25,308 bases of DNA from a virus: the IMG/VR virus record IMGVR_UViG_3300025671_000474, positions 1-25,308 of that record; one strand, 5' to 3'. The position numbers and the translations under genes were made by a program. Within the stretch, counting starts at the first letter, position 1; each line of letters starts with the position of its first letter. Below the pieces are notes generated by a model. It saw only the letters and a program-made list of their open reading frames with translations, was not told the origin of the DNA and searched no databases. Shown one piece after another: positions 1-10,566 of the stretch.

Positions 1-762
1 ATAGCAGGCATCGTCATAAGACGGAACTAAGGGCGCGAGCGATCCCCTGAGCACAATACGGTTGCAACTCAACCGGTTAAGTGTGCACGATGCCGAACTT
101 ATCAGGCTGTACCTTGTCAGCTGGCACCTTTAACTAGGTGAACAGTTAATGACAAGAACAGTTGTTGTAGTTGTTGTCAGCTAGTACCGCAAGGGAACGT
201 ACGGATGACACAGCTTAGCCCGCCAGACTCCGGCTACGGTGCAGTGCTAAGTGCCAGACCTTTAAGGTCACAGCGTGGGAATAAGGGTAGGAGAACCCCC
301 ACTAGAGAGTAATGAAGCCCAGACAATAACTACAACAACGTAACTAGAACTGATCAGTAGAGTCGTTCTCTACATTTAACGACGCAAACGGTAGTCGTCA
401 CCGTGGCACGCAGTTAGTTACAGCTTTGCACTTGTCACTTTGCAGGCTTGTCCAGAGTATCTGTCCTTAATGCAGGTACGCTGGACAAGCTGGAGGCAAT
501 TCCCACGCCGTCGATTAACCGCCGATGGCGAATTAAGTCCCGCAACTAGGTGAAACTGTGCAAACTGTAGCTAACTTAGTGCGTACATTTTAGTTTCGGG
601 TGACAATCCCGAACTGTATTAGGGCGGAGCCAGTTAATCACTAGCCTTGTCCGGATGTAGTCTTAAGTTTGATCCGATAGGATCATTTAGGATCATCGTG
701 TTGTGTTCGATTCTCTCCCCAAGCTTATCAGTTTGGTGAGGGATTCTTCCCTCTTTGTTGTT
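1..762 (+). ncRNA. large structured noncoding RNA candidate (GOLLD/ROOL-like class?)
   Basis: The region has no convincing ORF but is rich in Watson-Crick helices. Seen by eye: 60-64/70-74; 78-82/97-101; a composite hairpin 113-156 (113-119/150-156, 120-123/143-146, 125-129/136-140); an 18-bp long-range helix 161-178/322-339 with one G-U; 213-219/246-252; 257-261/265-269; 362-367/378-383; 388-392/400-404; a 10-bp plus 7-bp hairpin 446-490; 515-536; 595-600/608-613; and 671-675/680-684. GNRA loops fit at 35-38 and 189-192. A terminator at 738-762 sets the plus orientation. GOLLD and ROOL are known giant phage RNAs of about 600-800 nt, and assignment to either is a guess. It is not RNase P RNA or tmRNA, because the conserved cores are missing. 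The 5' end may lie outside the window. Confidence 0.7.
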
Positions 763-803
763 AGCTGCCAGCTCTATTGCTGGCGAATGTTATGAACATC
801 AAG
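711..803 (+). repeat. duplicated terminator-leader module, copy 1
   Basis: It shares with 1625-1737 an initial TTCTCTCCCC, a variable hairpin, the terminator, a 21-nt identical run ending in TTAGCTGCC, and then GAATGTTATGAAC at the gene start. In this copy the variable hairpin is small (719-722/733-736). The shared block spans terminator, leader and the first codons, so the whole expression module seems to have been duplicated. Confidence 0.65.
738..762 (+). terminator. rho-independent terminator after the structured RNA
   Basis: GAGGGA (738-743) pairs with TCCCTC (748-753) around a TTCT loop and is followed by TTTGTTGTT. It lies between the structured RNA and the first small gene, so it may end the RNA or act as an attenuator. 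A near copy occurs at 1676-1699. Confidence 0.7.
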
Positions 804-1091
804 ACCAACAATCAACCACGCCGACTGCTGTTTGCGTGTGAGTTCTCTGGCGCTGAACGTGCCAAACTCCGCCAACAGTTTGACTGGATGAGTGATGAGG
901 AGTTCGACTCCGATTGTTCTTTCTTTCGCTACAAAGGTTATTACTACAACCTCGCTGACTTTATGCGGGTTGATTCTTGTCTGGAGTCAGCACTTAGCGG
1001 TTGGCATGGTTACAGCTCCGACTCTTATTTCAGCGGTGTGCTGATCAAACTGTGCGGCGAGGATGTTATTGTCGGCCGTTACTATTCCTGA
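777..1091 (+). CDS. hypothetical small protein following the structured RNA
   Basis: A 104-residue protein of unknown function, acidic and aromatic, with an FFRYKGYYYNLADF segment near the middle and no signal peptide or membrane segment. The start is uncertain. TTG at 777 gives MLANVMN, matching the MLVNVMN start of the gene at 1711 inside the duplicated leader, while ATG at 792 would give 99 residues. No Shine-Dalgarno sequence precedes either. It is the first gene after the terminator at 738-762 and begins a run of small genes on the same strand. It looks real because it shares the expression module with 1711. Confidence 0.65.
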   Translation: MLANVMNIKTNNQPRRLLFACEFSGAERAKLRQQFDWMSDEEFDSDCSFFRYKGYYYNLADFMRVDSCLESALSGWHGYSSDSYFSGVLIKLCGEDVIVGRYYS

Positions 1092-1384: not shown

Positions 1385-1624
1385 ATGTTCCCTTTTGAAG
1401 TTACCAAGCTCTGCAAACAGTTCACTGGCCGCGTGTACTTGCAGAAAGAGAGACTCAATCAAGGCGGTTATACCAGCGATGGTATCTACTTTGGTGTGGG
1501 TGATCCGCTCTACTTTGCCCAAGATGAAGAAGGTCTGTGGGCAGACTACTTCCGGGCTTCATGTAGAGATGAAGCTATAGAGATCCTGCGTGATCGCTAT
1601 CCGATTGCCAAGATCAAACGTTGA
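1385..1624 (+). CDS. hypothetical small protein
   Basis: A 79-residue protein of unknown function with a central GGYTSDGIYFGVGDPLYF segment and a basic C-terminus. It starts at ATG in the junction TGATCATG, two bases after the previous stop. A 61-residue ORF in another frame at 1395 is a shadow. The gene ends just before the second duplicated leader, so it probably closes a three-gene unit (777, 1125, 1385). Confidence 0.7.
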   Translation: MFPFEVTKLCKQFTGRVYLQKERLNQGGYTSDGIYFGVGDPLYFAQDEEGLWADYFRASCRDEAIEILRDRYPIAKIKR

Positions 1625-1737
1625 TTCTCTCCCCCAATGATTCCGGAGCTGTATCGCAGTTCCGGTTCATTGTGTGAGGGATTCTCCCTCTTTGTTGTTA
1701 GCTGCCCGCCATGCTGGTGAATGTTATGAACCTGAGC
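1625..1737 (+). repeat. duplicated terminator-leader module, copy 2
   Basis: Second copy of the module at 711-803. Here the variable part is a strong hairpin: CAATGA (1635-1640) with TCATTG (1667-1672), and CCGGAGCTG (1643-1651) with CAGTTCCGG (1657-1665) around TATCG. The shared terminator and 21-nt run follow, then the ATGCTGGTGAATG gene start. It sits directly after the stop of the gene ending at 1624. Confidence 0.65.
1676..1699 (+). terminator. rho-independent terminator, second copy
   Basis: GAGGG (1676-1680) pairs with CCCTC (1686-1690) around ATTCT, followed by TTTGTTGTT. It ends the 777-1624 unit but lies only 12 nt before the next start codon, so it could also act as a leader attenuator together with the larger hairpin at 1635-1672. 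Confidence 0.7.
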
Positions 1738-3343: not shown

Positions 3344-3517
3344 ATGAATCACTTCCCTTACGACATTTATCAGTTGGATTCGCATAGCCTGGCCTACCAT
3401 TCCCTCGCACAATTCAAACAGATTCTCCTTAAAGAGGAGATGCCTGATGACGTTGTCTACTTAATCGAAGACAAGATCATCCCAGCTCTTGAAGGTATTG
3501 TCTCCCAAGATTACTGA
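3344..3517 (+). CDS. hypothetical 57-residue protein
   Basis: A short gene filling the gap between its neighbours. It begins MNHFPYDIYQLDSHSLAYHS and ends LEGIVSQDY. It is soluble and probably two helices, with no known function. The start has the usual local leader (AACTAACTCCA, no G). Its position, codon-like composition and lack of overlap support a real gene, but at this length coding status is not certain. Confidence 0.6.
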   Translation: MNHFPYDIYQLDSHSLAYHSLAQFKQILLKEEMPDDVVYLIEDKIIPALEGIVSQDY

Positions 3518-3547
3518 CTCTTAACTAACCCAACTCGCACAAACATC

Positions 3548-3895
3548 ATGCGTAAGATCGAATCACAAATGTTGCTCGCAATCCACTCTAAGAAAGATTG
3601 GAAGTGCGCCAACACACAAGTCTCTGTAACTTATTTCGCCCACGCTGATCGACTCATTGATCGCACAACTGTATATCTGCACGGTAGCCCAATCGCTCAG
3701 ATCAGCCCCGATACAGTTACGATCTGCGACTATGGTTACCAAACACCTACAACTAAGTCAAGACTAAATGCTATTCTGCGTGAGCTGTGCGGCGCTGGTA
3801 TCTACCAGAAGAATCACAAGTGGTTTGGCACAGCAATCGAAGAAGCTGATTGGGAGATCGAAAAGAACTCCCGTCACTGTTTTGTGCGAGGTTGA
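3548..3895 (+). CDS. conserved phage/plasmid protein, W..ANTQV / SRLNA family
   Basis: A 115-residue protein beginning MRKIESQMLLAI, with KKDWKCANTQVSV, VYLHGSPIAQI and TPTTKSRLNAILREL. This set and order is familiar from short proteins on bacterial plasmids and phages, with no known function. It is likely a compact beta-rich domain with a C-terminal helix. The leader is CCAACTCGCACAAACATC followed by ATG, without a Shine-Dalgarno. It ends six bases before the GTG of the next gene. Confidence 0.8.
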   Translation: MRKIESQMLLAIHSKKDWKCANTQVSVTYFAHADRLIDRTTVYLHGSPIAQISPDTVTICDYGYQTPTTKSRLNAILRELCGAGIYQKNHKWFGTAIEEADWEIEKNSRHCFVRG

Positions 3896-3900
3896 TCAGC

Positions 3901-4074
3901 GTGGCTTACTACATCCAACGACGAGATTACACCAACACCGTGGAAACAATCGATGAATTTGAAACAGCTAAAGAAGCCTACAGAGCCGCACGTGAATATA
4001 ACTTGGCGGATCCCACGGCTGTCCATTATGTGGCTAAGAGAGCCTGTAAAGCTTGGCTAGAAAGCGCAGCCTAA
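3901..4074 (+). CDS. YYIQRRD small protein, tandem paralogue 1
   Basis: A 57-residue protein, M(V)AYYIQRRD at the start, then EFETAKEAYRAAREYNLAD and YVAKRACKAW. It is clearly paralogous to 4128-4295, which shares YFIQRRD, EAFAAAREYNLSD and YYVTRQPCRAW. GTG at 3901 was chosen because it gives the same N-terminus as the ATG of the paralogue. Function is unknown; similar tiny phage proteins exist in memory only. A GC-rich hairpin at 4086-4100 separates the pair. Confidence 0.75.
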   Translation: MAYYIQRRDYTNTVETIDEFETAKEAYRAAREYNLADPTAVHYVAKRACKAWLESAA

Positions 4075-4085
4075 ATCACTATCCC

Positions 4086-4100
4086 GCGGCGCGGAGCCGC
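4086..4100 (+). repeat. GCGGC-GCGGA-GCCGC intergenic stem-loop
   Basis: A five-base perfect stem between the two tandem paralogues, with no T-tract. It is a third member in position, though not in exact sequence, of the GC-rich intercistronic stem-loops at 2059 and 2959. Confidence 0.5.
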
Positions 4101-4127
4101 CGCATAGTATTCTATCGAGCGTACACA

Positions 4128-4295
4128 ATGCCGTACTTCATTCAACGTAGAGACAACGATCGACTCGAAACTGTTGATCAATTTACAGACAGCAAAGAAG
4201 CTTTTGCTGCTGCTCGTGAGTACAACCTGAGCGATTCGTTCGCCCATTACTATGTCACCCGCCAACCATGCCGAGCATGGAATGACGAGGATTGA
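4128..4295 (+). CDS. YFIQRRD small protein, tandem paralogue 2
   Basis: A 55-residue paralogue of 3901-4074, beginning MPYFIQRRDNDRLETVDQF. About half of the positions match by eye. ATG at 4128 follows GTACACA, the local G-poor leader. The frame reaching back to 4053 overlaps the previous gene and includes the hairpin, so it is rejected. Its end overlaps the start of the next gene by 14 nt if ATG 4282 is used. Confidence 0.75.
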   Translation: MPYFIQRRDNDRLETVDQFTDSKEAFAAAREYNLSDSFAHYYVTRQPCRAWNDED

Positions 4296-4554
4296 TGATA
4301 GTCCCTTTGCCCTCTACCCCTTTTCCCAAATGACACCTGACGTTGAAGCGTTACTTGATTTAGTAACGCCTTATCTTCTAGAACAAGTTATTAAGTACAA
4401 TACAGATGAGTTTGACTCAGTTTGGGAGCCTCAGCACATTGAAGCCGTTAACAACATTTGTGAGTACATCGAGCAGACATATGGGCAACGTATAAACGGC
4501 AGTTTGTTCAGAGCTGCTGCAAAGCTCAAAGCTCGCATCAACCAAATTAACTAA
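4282..4554 (+). CDS. hypothetical helical protein
   Basis: A protein of 90 residues from ATG 4282 or 74 from ATG 4330, mainly helical (MTPDVEALLDLVTPYLLEQV, later YIEQTYGQRINGSLFRAAAK), with a basic C-terminus. Function is unknown. The frame is open from 4252 but that start overlaps the previous gene by 44 nt. ATG 4330 would leave a clean spacer. No Shine-Dalgarno decides between them. Confidence 0.65.
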   Translation: MTRIDDSPFALYPFSQMTPDVEALLDLVTPYLLEQVIKYNTDEFDSVWEPQHIEAVNNICEYIEQTYGQRINGSLFRAAAKLKARINQIN

Positions 4555-4565
4555 GAGGTTACTCA

Positions 4566-4676
4566 ATGGCTTTTTTAATGATCGGTGGATTTCTGATTGG
4601 TCTAGGGTGGGCCACCAAGCTTCCCCTGCTGATCATCTTGGGCGCTCTGTGTTTCTTCCTTCCTAGGCAATCCTAA
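4566..4676 (+). CDS. 36-residue hydrophobic membrane peptide
   Basis: A very short gene starting MAFLMIGGFLIGLGWATKLP and followed by LLIILGALCFFL, so one long or two short membrane segments with a basic tail (PRQS). ATG is preceded by AAGAGGTTACTCA, where AGAGG at 4554-4558 is a plausible Shine-Dalgarno. It may be a small inner- or thylakoid-membrane effector or a holin-like peptide; function is not known. Confidence 0.55.
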   Translation: MAFLMIGGFLIGLGWATKLPLLIILGALCFFLPRQS

Positions 4677-4742
4677 AATGTAGTGGACTATGCAGGCTGT
4701 CTAGTTAAGCTGGATGGCCTACTTAATTTGCCACGGTCTGCC

Positions 4743-5006
4743 GTGACTGATAACAATCACATCTGGTTTCAGATTCCCGAGCATTGGGTTGATGCTCTGA
4801 TTAACGATGACGAAACACGTCTAGATGTTTCTGCACAGGAGCTCAAAGGATACAGGCAGTTTATGTACCACTTCGTGGAAACCAGCGACATTCTATCCGT
4901 AGGACAATCGCCATACTTCAGCAAGCATCACGATGCGCGACCTTACGGAGTGTTACCCTGCGACGTTGTGGACGTGAAAATCGGTTATGATTACGATCCT
5001 TGCTGA
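4743..5006 (+). CDS. small phage protein, paralogue of the gene at 1125
   Basis: An 87-residue protein from GTG 4743; the frame is open from GTG 4683 (107 residues). GTG 4743 gives MTDNNHIWFQIPEHW, which lines up with no gap with MTELREATYTLPAHW of the gene at 1125, so this start is preferred. It also shares LIN.D and F.KHHDARPYGVL.CD. Function is unknown. The two copies flank the whole small-gene island, and a tRNA follows 10 bases after the stop. Confidence 0.75.
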   Translation: MTDNNHIWFQIPEHWVDALINDDETRLDVSAQELKGYRQFMYHFVETSDILSVGQSPYFSKHHDARPYGVLPCDVVDVKIGYDYDPC

Positions 5007-5015
5007 GAAGCGCAC

Positions 5016-5088
5016 GGGGGTCTAGCAATCTAGTGAATGCAGCGAACTCATAATTCGCCATAGGTGAGTGCAATCCTCACGACCCTCA
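5016..5088 (+). tRNA. tRNA with anticodon CAU (Ile2 or elongator Met), atypical loops
   Basis: The cloverleaf is complete. Acceptor GGGGGTC (5016-5022) pairs with GACCCTC (5081-5087, one G-U). The anticodon arm is GCGAA/TTCGC (5042-5046/5054-5058) with loop CTCATAA and anticodon CAT. The T stem is GTGAG/CTCAC (5064-5068/5076-5080) and the discriminator is A5088. The D stem has three pairs (5025-5027/5038-5040), its loop lacks the usual GG, and the T loop is TGCAATC instead of TTC-type. CCA is not encoded. It is not an initiator by its acceptor pair and anticodon stem. It sits 12 nt upstream of the next ATG. Confidence 0.75.
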
Positions 5089-7635: not shown

Positions 7636-7838
7636 TGTACCGAACTCTCTACGTATTTCAAACTGACAAAGGTTACTTAACTGAAGACCGCACAACTACG
7701 ACCGATCCCTTCGAAGCGATCACTTTTGTGGATTTCGATTCAGCGTGTAAACGTCTAGCTGCTGCTAGCGGTGTATACGCCGGCGAGGTAAACATCAAAC
7801 CCGTTCAAGCTCAATTCCCTAAGCCTCTAAACAAATGA
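7635..7838 (+). CDS. hypothetical 67-residue protein of the MoxR-VWA operon
   Basis: A small soluble protein beginning MYRTLYVFQTDKGYLTEDRT, with a predicted strand-strand-helix start and a proline-containing basic tail. It overlaps the previous stop by one base (TGATG) and the next ATG by four (ATGA), so it is translated as part of the coupled set. Its function is unknown and I recognise no family. Confidence 0.7.
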   Translation: MYRTLYVFQTDKGYLTEDRTTTTDPFEAITFVDFDSACKRLAAASGVYAGEVNIKPVQAQFPKPLNK

Positions 7839-9022
7839 ACACCAAACTCTTCACTCAGCTTCAAAACTTTCGTAGCGCTCTTAACTCCGCCACGCTCGAA
7901 CGAACAGACGTTATTGATGGTCTGCTCAGCTGTCTAATCTCTAGGCAAAACGCATTTCTGCTCGGTGCCCCTGGCACCGGCAAATCCGATCTCGTTCGCA
8001 ACATTTGCAAAGGTATTACAGGAGTCAACTACTTCGGTTACTTGCTGACTCCTACTACCGACCCTTCGGAAGTATTCGGACCTGTCGCAGTAACAAAACT
8101 GCTGAAGGATGAATACGAACGTGATACCGATGGTTACCTCCCCTCGGCACACGTCGGCTTCCTGGACGAGCTGTTCCGTGGCAGCTCAGCCATCCTCAAC
8201 TCTTTACTGACCCTCCTAAACGAGAGGACTTTCAACAACGGCAAATCAACTATCATCACTCCTCTGCAGAGCATCGTCGCTGCAACCAACAGCTGGCCCG
8301 AGGAGGAGTCACTGCAAGCTTTCAGCGATCGTTTTCTATTCCGTCCGACGGTCCACGCACTCAAGAAGCCCGCTTCGAAGCGGATTCTGGATCAATGGGC
8401 ATTAGGCATCGAGCAGCGTCCTGCCGTCGGCGAGCACCTTTCGCTCGAACAACTAAGCGAGCTTCAGGCCGAAGTAGATAAGGTCAAGATCTCCGATGAG
8501 TTTTTAGACAAGTTCACTTCTGTGTGGGAGCTCCTGGCTCAGCGAGGCATCCTGATCAGCGATCGACGTCGCGTTCAGATCCTTAAGTTCCTGCGGGCCT
8601 GGGCTCTGGTTCAGGGCGACGACACAGTGCATCCTGAGCACATGCACAACAGCATCGTACACATTGTGTATAACTCCCCTGACGATCAGGATGTTATACG
8701 CGAAGTGCTTGATCAAGAGATTCCCACGGCGGCTCGTTTGTTCGGCGACGCCAAGCGAGCAGCCTCAGGCGTCATGGCTGAGTTTCAGAGCACTGTGCAT
8801 CGCAGCCGTGGGCAGAACCTTGAGGGACTAAACGAATACGTAGTAATGCTGCGTAAATACCATAAGGACGTAGGCACCATCAAATCAAAAGTCGATGAGC
8901 TCTTGACCAGTGATCGCGTTAAGATCGGTGCATCTGATCGTATGAACGGCGTAAAGCTCACACAACAACTTCAGAACAACCTAGACACCATCGCCCGCGA
9001 AATCTCAGAGGTAGCTCAATGA
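7835..9022 (+). CDS. MoxR/RavA-like AAA+ ATPase
   Basis: A 395-residue ATPase. Walker A is GAPGTGKS (44-51), Walker B is VGFLDE (107-112), sensor 1 is in VAATN (148-152) and DRFLFR (165-170) follows. The FLDELFRGSSAILNSLLT block (109-126) is very close to the RavA type of MoxR enzymes, which work as hexamers with a VWA partner in remodelling other proteins. The C-terminal part has a helical lid and an extra helical tail. It overlaps its neighbours by ATGA on both sides, including the VWA gene that follows. The target is unknown. Confidence 0.92.
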   Translation: MNTKLFTQLQNFRSALNSATLERTDVIDGLLSCLISRQNAFLLGAPGTGKSDLVRNICKGITGVNYFGYLLTPTTDPSEVFGPVAVTKLLKDEYERDTDGYLPSAHVGFLDELFRGSSAILNSLLTLLNERTFNNGKSTIITPLQSIVAATNSWPEEESLQAFSDRFLFRPTVHALKKPASKRILDQWALGIEQRPAVGEHLSLEQLSELQAEVDKVKISDEFLDKFTSVWELLAQRGILISDRRRVQILKFLRAWALVQGDDTVHPEHMHNSIVHIVYNSPDDQDVIREVLDQEIPTAARLFGDAKRAASGVMAEFQSTVHRSRGQNLEGLNEYVVMLRKYHKDVGTIKSKVDELLTSDRVKIGASDRMNGVKLTQQLQNNLDTIAREISEVAQ

Positions 9023-10566
9023 CACAGACACGCCGCGAGTTCCTTCGCCTCATCGAGAACGAACCACTAACTCTGGGCTGCAGCGCTCTCGCCGACTTCC
9101 TCTGGGAAGATTTTGTGCGGGACCAGCGCCCCAGTGTTAATTATTTGATCAACACTTACAAAATTACGCAGCTGAGCCGATTTGGAAAAGAAATTTTCGA
9201 GCGGCTGTACAACGAAGACAACGTTAAGTGGCTGATAAGCGAGCAGGATGTTGAGGACTACTTCAGAGCAGTCTGTAACGGCTTGCCGCCTAAAATGCCA
9301 GAGGGGTACAAACCCGAGAACGGTGTGTGGTGGGCGATCATGCAGGAGCTCACTAACGCGGCGGGCTGGCCCTATCTGCTGAACCGGTGCGTCGGGGATC
9401 AATTCGCATCCGGCAATAATGCTGTGATGCTGCTTAACGAGCTGGCCGAGGAGATCGAACAAGCAATCGCCGAGGGCACGTTCGACGTAGAGCTGCTGAC
9501 GCAGGCGGGAGAAAAGCTGCAGGAACTGCGCGACAAATTCCGACAGGCCGTGAAGGAAGGACAGACCGACAAGGCTGCGAGCTTCCGTCAGCAGGCGAAG
9601 GAGATGATTAACCAGATCAACGACGCTGTACAACAGACAGCTGAACAGATCGGTGCTCAGACCGGTAATGCAGTGGATCGGGTTAACAAGGCCCACGACA
9701 AGCTTCAGGAGCAGATAGGCAACCTGTTCGGGGACACAGCAGGCACGGGCACGTCGACAGGAACTCTGGCCGAGAAGAAAGCCCTAGCCAAGCGCCTTTC
9801 GAGGAACCAGACCCTGCGCAAGGTGGCTGAGCGCTTAGGCACACTGCGGCGGGTATGGGCGGAACGCAAACGGGCTCGTAGGGCAAAGAGCAATTACGAG
9901 AACATCGTCGGCGCCAAGTTTGATAACAATGTCGTGCAGGCGTTCCCTAGCGAAATTGCCTTAGCGGCTACGCCGCAGGGCCGCGCATTATTTGCTCTCA
10001 AATACTCAGAACGTACACTCCTTACTAAAGACTACACTGCAGACCGTAAAGACCTTGGTAAAGGTCCAATCGTGATGTACGTGGATGTATCCGGTTCCAT
10101 GACAGGTGCTAACGAGATTTGGTCTAAGGCCATCACGTTCGTCATTGCGGAGGAAGCACTCAAACAGAACCGAACAGTGCAGATCAACCTGTTTGATACG
10201 CACATTCAAAACTCCGTCACGATCGCTCCTAACAAAAGCGATACTGGAAAGCTGCTGGACTTCGTGGGCGACTGGTTCTTGCAAGGAGGTACCAGTTTCA
10301 ATAGCGTGATCGGCCACGCTCTCTCGAACGAGGAGCTAACTAAGAACAGTGACGTGCTGATGATCACGGACGGGGAGTCTTCGGTAAACGACGCGTTCGT
10401 AAAGCGCATCAATTCTTTTAAAGATGACACAGGTACACAGTGGACCACATTCTGCATCGCTCGCTACCTGCCGCCCATCGTTGCTACATTCAGTGACGAA
10501 AGCTACCTCGTAGACACATCCGATGACAATAATGTCGTCGATGTAATTCAGAAAGCGATCCGATGA
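9019..10566 (+). CDS. VWA-domain protein, ViaA/CoxE-like partner of the MoxR ATPase
   Basis: A 515-residue protein. The N-terminal half is helical with a long charged coiled-coil region (about 155-240) and a basic stretch (about 250-300). The C-terminal VWA domain has a complete metal site: DVSGSM (356-361), T425 in GGTSF and D451 in ITDGE. The spacing and the words around DVSGSM match ViaA-type proteins, which bind RavA-type ATPases. The gene starts within the stop of the ATPase gene (ATGA), which supports a complex. It acts in the cytoplasm by lack of signal or membrane segments. Confidence 0.9.
   Translation: MTQTRREFLRLIENEPLTLGCSALADFLWEDFVRDQRPSVNYLINTYKITQLSRFGKEIFERLYNEDNVKWLISEQDVEDYFRAVCNGLPPKMPEGYKPENGVWWAIMQELTNAAGWPYLLNRCVGDQFASGNNAVMLLNELAEEIEQAIAEGTFDVELLTQAGEKLQELRDKFRQAVKEGQTDKAASFRQQAKEMINQINDAVQQTAEQIGAQTGNAVDRVNKAHDKLQEQIGNLFGDTAGTGTSTGTLAEKKALAKRLSRNQTLRKVAERLGTLRRVWAERKRARRAKSNYENIVGAKFDNNVVQAFPSEIALAATPQGRALFALKYSERTLLTKDYTADRKDLGKGPIVMYVDVSGSMTGANEIWSKAITFVIAEEALKQNRTVQINLFDTHIQNSVTIAPNKSDTGKLLDFVGDWFLQGGTSFNSVIGHALSNEELTKNSDVLMITDGESSVNDAFVKRINSFKDDTGTQWTTFCIARYLPPIVATFSDESYLVDTSDDNNVVDVIQKAIR

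Follow-up and report, generated by a model that had tools for sequence, protein, structure and literature searches.

A large, modular non-coding RNA upstream of the early operon of a probable cyanophage: a candidate new class of phage RNA

Introduction

Why should a viral contig open with more than 700 nucleotides that hold no convincing gene and are dense in potential helices? The contig in question (IMG/VR record IMGVR_UViG_3300025671_000474, positions 1–25,308; the whole analysed stretch of 25,308 nt is hereafter the window) raises this question at its left end. An initial annotation had read positions 1–762 as a giant structured RNA, either with the look of GOLLD and ROOL or of a new class, and had named as checks the covariance models of GOLLD, ROOL and OLE, folding against shuffled controls, and a search for compensatory changes in relatives. 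Beyond ribosomes and ribozymes, the list of known structured RNAs of very large size is short, and no function has been established for its phage members. The explanation that we favour, at somewhat better than even confidence, is a large multi-domain cyanophage non-coding RNA that lies directly upstream of the early operon and acts as an RNA after its release.

The left end is gene-free, strongly folded and truncated

In the ORF listing there is no convincing reading frame within 1–762, in agreement with the gene-free stretch of over 760 bases described at the outset; the first ORF starts at 777 or 792, and relatives of the region share no conserved frame. The minimum free energy of 1–762 is −284 kcal/mol, compared with −229 ± 7.5 kcal/mol for dinucleotide-shuffled controls (z = −7.3; none of 20 shuffles was as good), placing the region well below the shuffles. 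The reverse strand is less stable (z = −4.5). A scan of the contig in 300-nt windows, which is rough as it used 15 shuffles per window, finds its lowest z (−8.8) at 301–600, with a mean of −0.9 for the remaining contig. The 18-bp long-range helix proposed between 161–178 and 322–339 is present (94% complementary), as is the hairpin proposed at 446–490, which pairs 446–463 with 473–490 (89% complementary).

The proposal of a giant structured RNA at 1–762 holds for structure but not for completeness; the contig begins inside the element. A longer contig, L006, is identical to the window over 1–780 and supplies the missing 5′ part (window position = L006 position − 4224). It contains about 630 nt of further upstream RNA region that is absent from the window, from which we infer that the window holds the last 60% of an RNA of roughly 1.2–1.4 kb in full. 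The non-coding stretch of L006 extends to an ORF at 5001, and its positions 3597–4980 (1,384 nt) fold at −528 kcal/mol, with z = −12.7 for the strand of the window and −5.7 for its complement (10 shuffles). A small gene upstream of the RNA in L006 ends in a strong terminator (3515–3534), so that the RNA needs its own promoter. Also upstream of the RNA, at approximately L006 3548–3670, is a conserved block, TTTTACCCCC..TTTTCCAGCAAGATT...CTCGCCGG..GGCGACG, which is a candidate for the promoter and 5′ end of the RNA. On the minus strand, L006 has an upstream ORF of 940 aa, for which no family match was obtained.

J4, a branched domain with compensatory changes

The domain nearest the left end, denoted J4, is a 90-nt branched structure on the plus strand (window 7–94, within the model match 1–97), closed by a 7–13/88–94 helix. 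It comprises a GNRA-capped stem (30–33/45–48 and 37–38/43–44) and a two-part arm (51–55/82–86 and 59–64/70–75). The loop of the former, GCGA at 39–42, caps a covarying stem and bears out the GNRA loops that had been suggested. By BLAST, window 11–74 matches the non-coding gap of the Synechococcus podoviruses S-CBP1 and DSL-LC07; this J4 stretch, in these two phages only, is the sole DNA similarity of the region to annotated phages. A corrected form of the pattern ACGGAACTANNGNNCGAGNGATCCC, one base longer, occurs in 47 IMG/VR stretches. The covariance model R1, built on 31 J4 sequences, matches window 1–97 at E=3e-19 and gives 51 matches (35 distinct) in 54 loci; there was no J4 match in S-EIV1 or in the fetched stretches of Syn5, P-SSP3, P-SSP10 and 9515-10a, and the fetched stretch of S-CBP3 likewise gave none.

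Across the 51 matches, 16 of the 24 pairs are changed on both sides and standard pairs fill 96.5% of the pair cells; covariation scores 0.522, against 0.123 for shuffled and at most 0.063 for slid controls (0 of 500 shuffles). This alignment is structure-fitted, and an independent MAFFT alignment was counted as well, giving 15 double-sided pairs out of 24 and a score of 0.425 versus 0.129. One J4 pair is mostly U-G, and elsewhere A-U or U-A; since the retention of a U-G pair makes sense in RNA alone, this argues that J4 acts as RNA and not as DNA. An additional hairpin is inserted in the J4 junction of two relatives (L092 and L100). Compensatory changes, which had been named as a check, are found not only in J4 but also in the core domain and pseudoknot described below.

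The core domain and its nearly invariant hairpin

The core domain (407–581, plus strand; covariance model R2) consists of P1 (409–423/565–579), the P2 hairpin (449–487) and P3, all of which recur across three sequence groups. Double changes are seen in 10 of its 37 pairs, with a covariation score of 0.203 against 0.097 when shuffled. P2, with the pattern UGUCCAGmGUAhCUGU...CAGGUACkCUGGACA, is nearly invariant and hence gives little covariation. The pattern occurs in 30 viral stretches and in none of 84,980 prokaryote genomes; conservation of this kind suggests that P2 probably binds something specific. R2 also reaches further groups weakly, and reverse-strand matches appear, which indicates that its weaker scores are driven by the near-palindromic hairpin.

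An optional arm, pseudoknots and peripheral hairpins

Following J4 is a hairpin domain (113–156, plus strand) with the stem CUUGUCA...UGACAAG and an inner CACC/GGUG hairpin, which is conserved in close relatives; the stretch 105–160 on its own folds at −19.9 kcal/mol. The 18-bp helix forms the base of an arm cassette (148–342, plus strand; 195 nt) that is optional, being precisely absent from L007, L024, L025, L018, L020 and L027. In L019, the arm is 96–100% identical to that of the window and the flanking blocks are about 50% identical; this is the single close relative of the arm, so that the inner fold of the arm is a putative one.

Two candidate pseudoknots lie between the arm and the core. 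For the first (a; 347–373, plus strand), a GUAGA/UCUAC stem presents a loop that pairs with GAAC; the candidate is kept in L024, L020, L027 and L032, and in L007 the stem is GUAGG/CCUAC. In the second (b; 379–404, plus strand), the stem is formed by 388–392/400–404, and 379–383 pairs with loop 394–398. The pairing of loop 393–399 with 379–383, raised initially as a possible switch or pseudoknot, is indeed possible and is preserved in relatives by differing complementary letters (GGCG/CGCC, GGGCG/CGCCC and TGACA/TGTCA). For four close relatives the program listed the 347–373 candidate first, with pairing b visible too. The pseudoknot layout is present in 12 of 12 sequences compared with 16 of 400 shuffled 100-nt windows, the 12 being kin that represent perhaps four or five independent cases. 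An alternative reading is that these pairings are mutually exclusive hairpins. Towards the 3′ end, hairpins at 594–613, 622–652 and 659–694 (within 594–694, plus strand) are placed by the consensus fold of seven close relatives and by single-sequence folds.

Taken together with the fold energy (z −7.3), the retained pseudoknot and the lack of a conserved frame in relatives, the covariation refutes the notion that the region is no feature at all, whether an ordinary intergenic stretch with a chance fold or the remains of a former gene; we give this reading practically no weight. Two of the outcomes named initially as refuting a structured RNA, a folding energy like that of shuffled sequence and a lack of covariation, were thus not observed.

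A bistable element ahead of the first early gene

At the 3′ end of the region (709–753, plus strand), three short strands compete: S1, CUCUC (713–717), which is followed by an inner stem; S2, GAGGG (738–742); and S3, CCCUC (749–753). The pairings CUCUC:GAGGG and GAGGG:CCCUC give mutually exclusive folds that share the inner stem, and in ten examples the two folds are 1.0–2.7 kcal/mol apart, the first always being slightly better. The element is found in nearly all relatives, 250–360 nt past P2 and shortly ahead of an ATG, with inner stems that differ in sequence among relatives. It lies approximately 20–35 nt upstream of start codons (about 24–28 nt ahead of the gene in P-SSP10 and 9515-10a), and so has a trait of attenuators and riboswitches, namely two exclusive folds near a start codon. 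In the window the gene that follows (777–1091, plus strand) encodes 104 aa with a weak match to phrog_1845. A second copy, with a much longer inner stem, is located at 1623–1690 (plus strand) before an ORF at 1711–2058; L020 and L032 also have a copy ahead of a second gene.

The terminator that had been described after the region corresponds to the hairpin at 738–753 (L006 4962–4977). The hairpin is terminator-like, but it belongs to the two-state element, and several relatives are without the T-run: hairpin and T-run together end the region in the window (UUUGUUGUU), but not in L011, L012, L015, L060 or L068. As the T-run is found only in some, termination is at most part of the role of the element. 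Among marine viral contigs (L036–L050), small genes have a hairpin, GATTCTCTCC...GAGGGATTC, directly behind their stop codon; it is a relative of the 3′ element. The element, which recurs across several families of cyanophages, is a new and compact candidate for a switch.

These observations bear on whether the whole region is a cis-acting leader, in which the domains would act on RNA polymerase or ribosomes (antitermination, attenuation, timing) and the 3′ element would be the switch. In every case an early gene directly follows the region, the element keeps its short distance to start codons even in P-SSP10 and 9515-10a, the fold energies are nearly equal in all ten examples, and a second copy precedes another gene of the same operon. 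Moreover, the gap between the 3′ element and the first gene is just about 35 nt and leaves little room for a separate promoter, so a single primary transcript probably comprises both the RNA and the early mRNA; for this reason the cis-acting leader keeps about a third of the weight. A cis switch usually needs one compact sensor, however, and a size above 1 kb with loss or gain of a 195-nt cassette is unusual for one; it also fits poorly with the reversed domain order between phage families, and with the replacement of the core by an HNH ORF in L019 (both described below).

Relatives and exchange of modules

The 104-aa ORF has 22 loci in IMG/VR, most of which, where upstream DNA is available, show a non-coding region of similar length. 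The phage of the window is probably, with moderate confidence, distantly related to S-EIV1, a cyanophage from fresh water. The primase of the window phage has S-EIV1 as best phage match (28.9%), its polymerase is nearest to those of Pseudanabaena phages, and its divergent gene layout is like that of S-EIV1; a terminase Pfam family gave no match in the large contigs, so the virus type rests on these three features. Window 7835–10566 encodes a MoxR-type ATPase (bpMoxR, PF20030) and, after it, a VWA-domain protein; the two are unusual neighbours in a phage replication region.

Other relatives differ in their modules. At the J4 position, L018, L019 and L025 have another domain, which is also present in L071 (GCACGGCC..GCGGACTGCGCCGATGG..) and appears to be a further exchangeable cassette. 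In L019, an HNH ORF (PF01844; 4370–4735, minus strand) replaces the part matching window 452–558, i.e. the core hairpin. In the podovirus contigs L084 and L089, P2 lies some 520–620 nt before J4 (at 3486–3516 in L084; about 617 nt ahead of J4 in L089), which is the order opposite to that in the window.

In the podoviruses, the J4 region is flanked by thyX and the first early gene. As a whole, this region is little better folded than shuffled sequence (z 0 to −3.4) and so the giant form is a trait of the phage group of the window; podovirus J4 is one module within a leader of ordinary kind and does not belong to a giant RNA. The podovirus contigs have a conserved sigma70-like sequence, TTTTTGACATAAATTT....AAGCCTTATATCG (TTGACA ... 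TATATC), 470–850 nt upstream of J4, which would fit early transcription by the host polymerase. In P-SSP3 (L115 3129–3908) the early genes are preceded by a 780-nt non-coding gap, which contains a near-perfect hairpin of great length around CTCTCCCTTTAGGGTGAGAG; this is possibly another leader RNA.

The podovirus location also invites a reading at the DNA level, according to which the inverted repeats serve as a replication origin, genome end or packaging site. That podovirus interval is where the genome ends of P-SSP7 lie (PMC3350473), and P2 is strongly conserved in sequence. The compensatory changes, the U-G pair, the single favoured strand, the GNRA loop and the pseudoknots nevertheless all point to RNA, and we regard a DNA element as very improbable.

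Comparison with RNA families

A cmscan search of the window with 4,227 Rfam families gave no match at gathering scores, and in 14 relatives tRNAs alone were matched. When the threshold was relaxed to E up to 10, no relevant family appeared; the models for GOLLD, ROOL and OLE, named beforehand, and that for HEARO all remained unmatched. Relaxed-threshold matches to sR45 and HOTAIR_2 are unrelated and due to chance, and a tRNA-like reading of 700–720 was dropped after ARAGORN. The only tRNA of the window is a tRNA-Met (CAT) at 5016–5088, approximately 4.3 kb downstream of the RNA; some relatives have tRNAs upstream. Of the initial comparison, the large ornate RNA and the new class are retained, and membership of GOLLD or ROOL is not, given that no Rfam model matched. 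In the open literature, to which the search was confined, no description of the RNA was found.

Kinship apart, the RNA could still be a nanocage or other RNA-only oligomer of the GOLLD and ROOL kind, which would be a special case of the released RNA that we favour. It is large, of phage origin and rich in hairpins and pseudoknots, and no protein is known to partner it. Both GOLLD and ROOL form cages even though neither is related to the other (PMC12286853). Neither family was matched here, the lone tRNA-Met is no tRNA island, and the domains seem to vary more among relatives than those of a cage subunit would; we consider a cage unlikely.

Discussion

The stability of the fold, the covariation of its helices, the loss, swapping and reordering of its modules and the lack of any matching Rfam family are best read as marking a new class of large, modular cyanophage RNA. 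In the mechanism that we favour, early transcription would produce the RNA as the leading part of the early transcript. The 3′ element would determine whether the RNA is released or processed, or whether the early genes are reached by read-through or translated. Once released, the RNA may serve as a scaffold or decoy for host factors, which J4 and the UGUCCAG hairpin would bind; the optional arm and the swapped domains would be peripheral cassettes.

More tentatively, and with clearly less confidence than in the released RNA itself, we envisage a mosaic RNA in which exchangeable cassettes are traded among unrelated cyanophages, combining early expression, host-factor binding and a three-strand switch. 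Cassette exchange, if true, would mean that RNA domains are shuffled in the manner of protein domains, which is rarely seen. In the relatives seen here the RNA exceeds both GOLLD and ROOL in length. Two isolated phages (S-CBP1, which grows on Synechococcus CB0101, and DSL-LC07) carry part of it, making its expression, partners and the effects of deletion testable.

Among known systems, GOLLD, which is often near or contains tRNA genes and forms a 14-mer nanocage, is similar in its size, phage origin, ornate fold and many hairpins. The RNA described here differs in having no Rfam match and no tRNA island, in being the leader of an early operon and in the permutation of its modules among phage families. 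GOLLD has been described as a very large phage RNA with many hairpins, a conserved and a variable part and a function that is unknown (PMC12286853). ROOL (659 nt for env-120; PMC12286853) is likewise a large phage RNA with pseudoknots, but the present RNA has about twice its length, variable cassettes and no match to its Rfam model. OLE shares the large, ornate character, but comes from bacteria and has protein partners that are known (PMC12286853), whereas the RNA here is of phage origin and without an Rfam match. The HNH ORF (PF01844) within the RNA region of L019 recalls HEARO; there is again no Rfam match, however, and the ORF occurs in 1 of about 17 relatives, on the opposite strand and replacing the core.

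Hairpins between early genes and close to start codons are also a feature of T7, whose early mRNA carries RNase III processing hairpins shortly before start codons; the element here differs in having three strands and two mutually exclusive pairings. The closest parallel in position is the left-end leader of T7-like cyanophages (P-SSP7, S-CBP1, DSL-LC07), which is found in the same place before the early genes and contains J4 in S-CBP1 and DSL-LC07. The genome of P-SSP7 ends in 206-bp repeats and has a 728-bp region upstream of ORF1 (PMC3350473). The podovirus region overall is not unusually stable, and the open literature searched holds no description of it as an RNA, whereas in the phage group of the window the same position before the early genes is occupied by a giant, strongly folded RNA.
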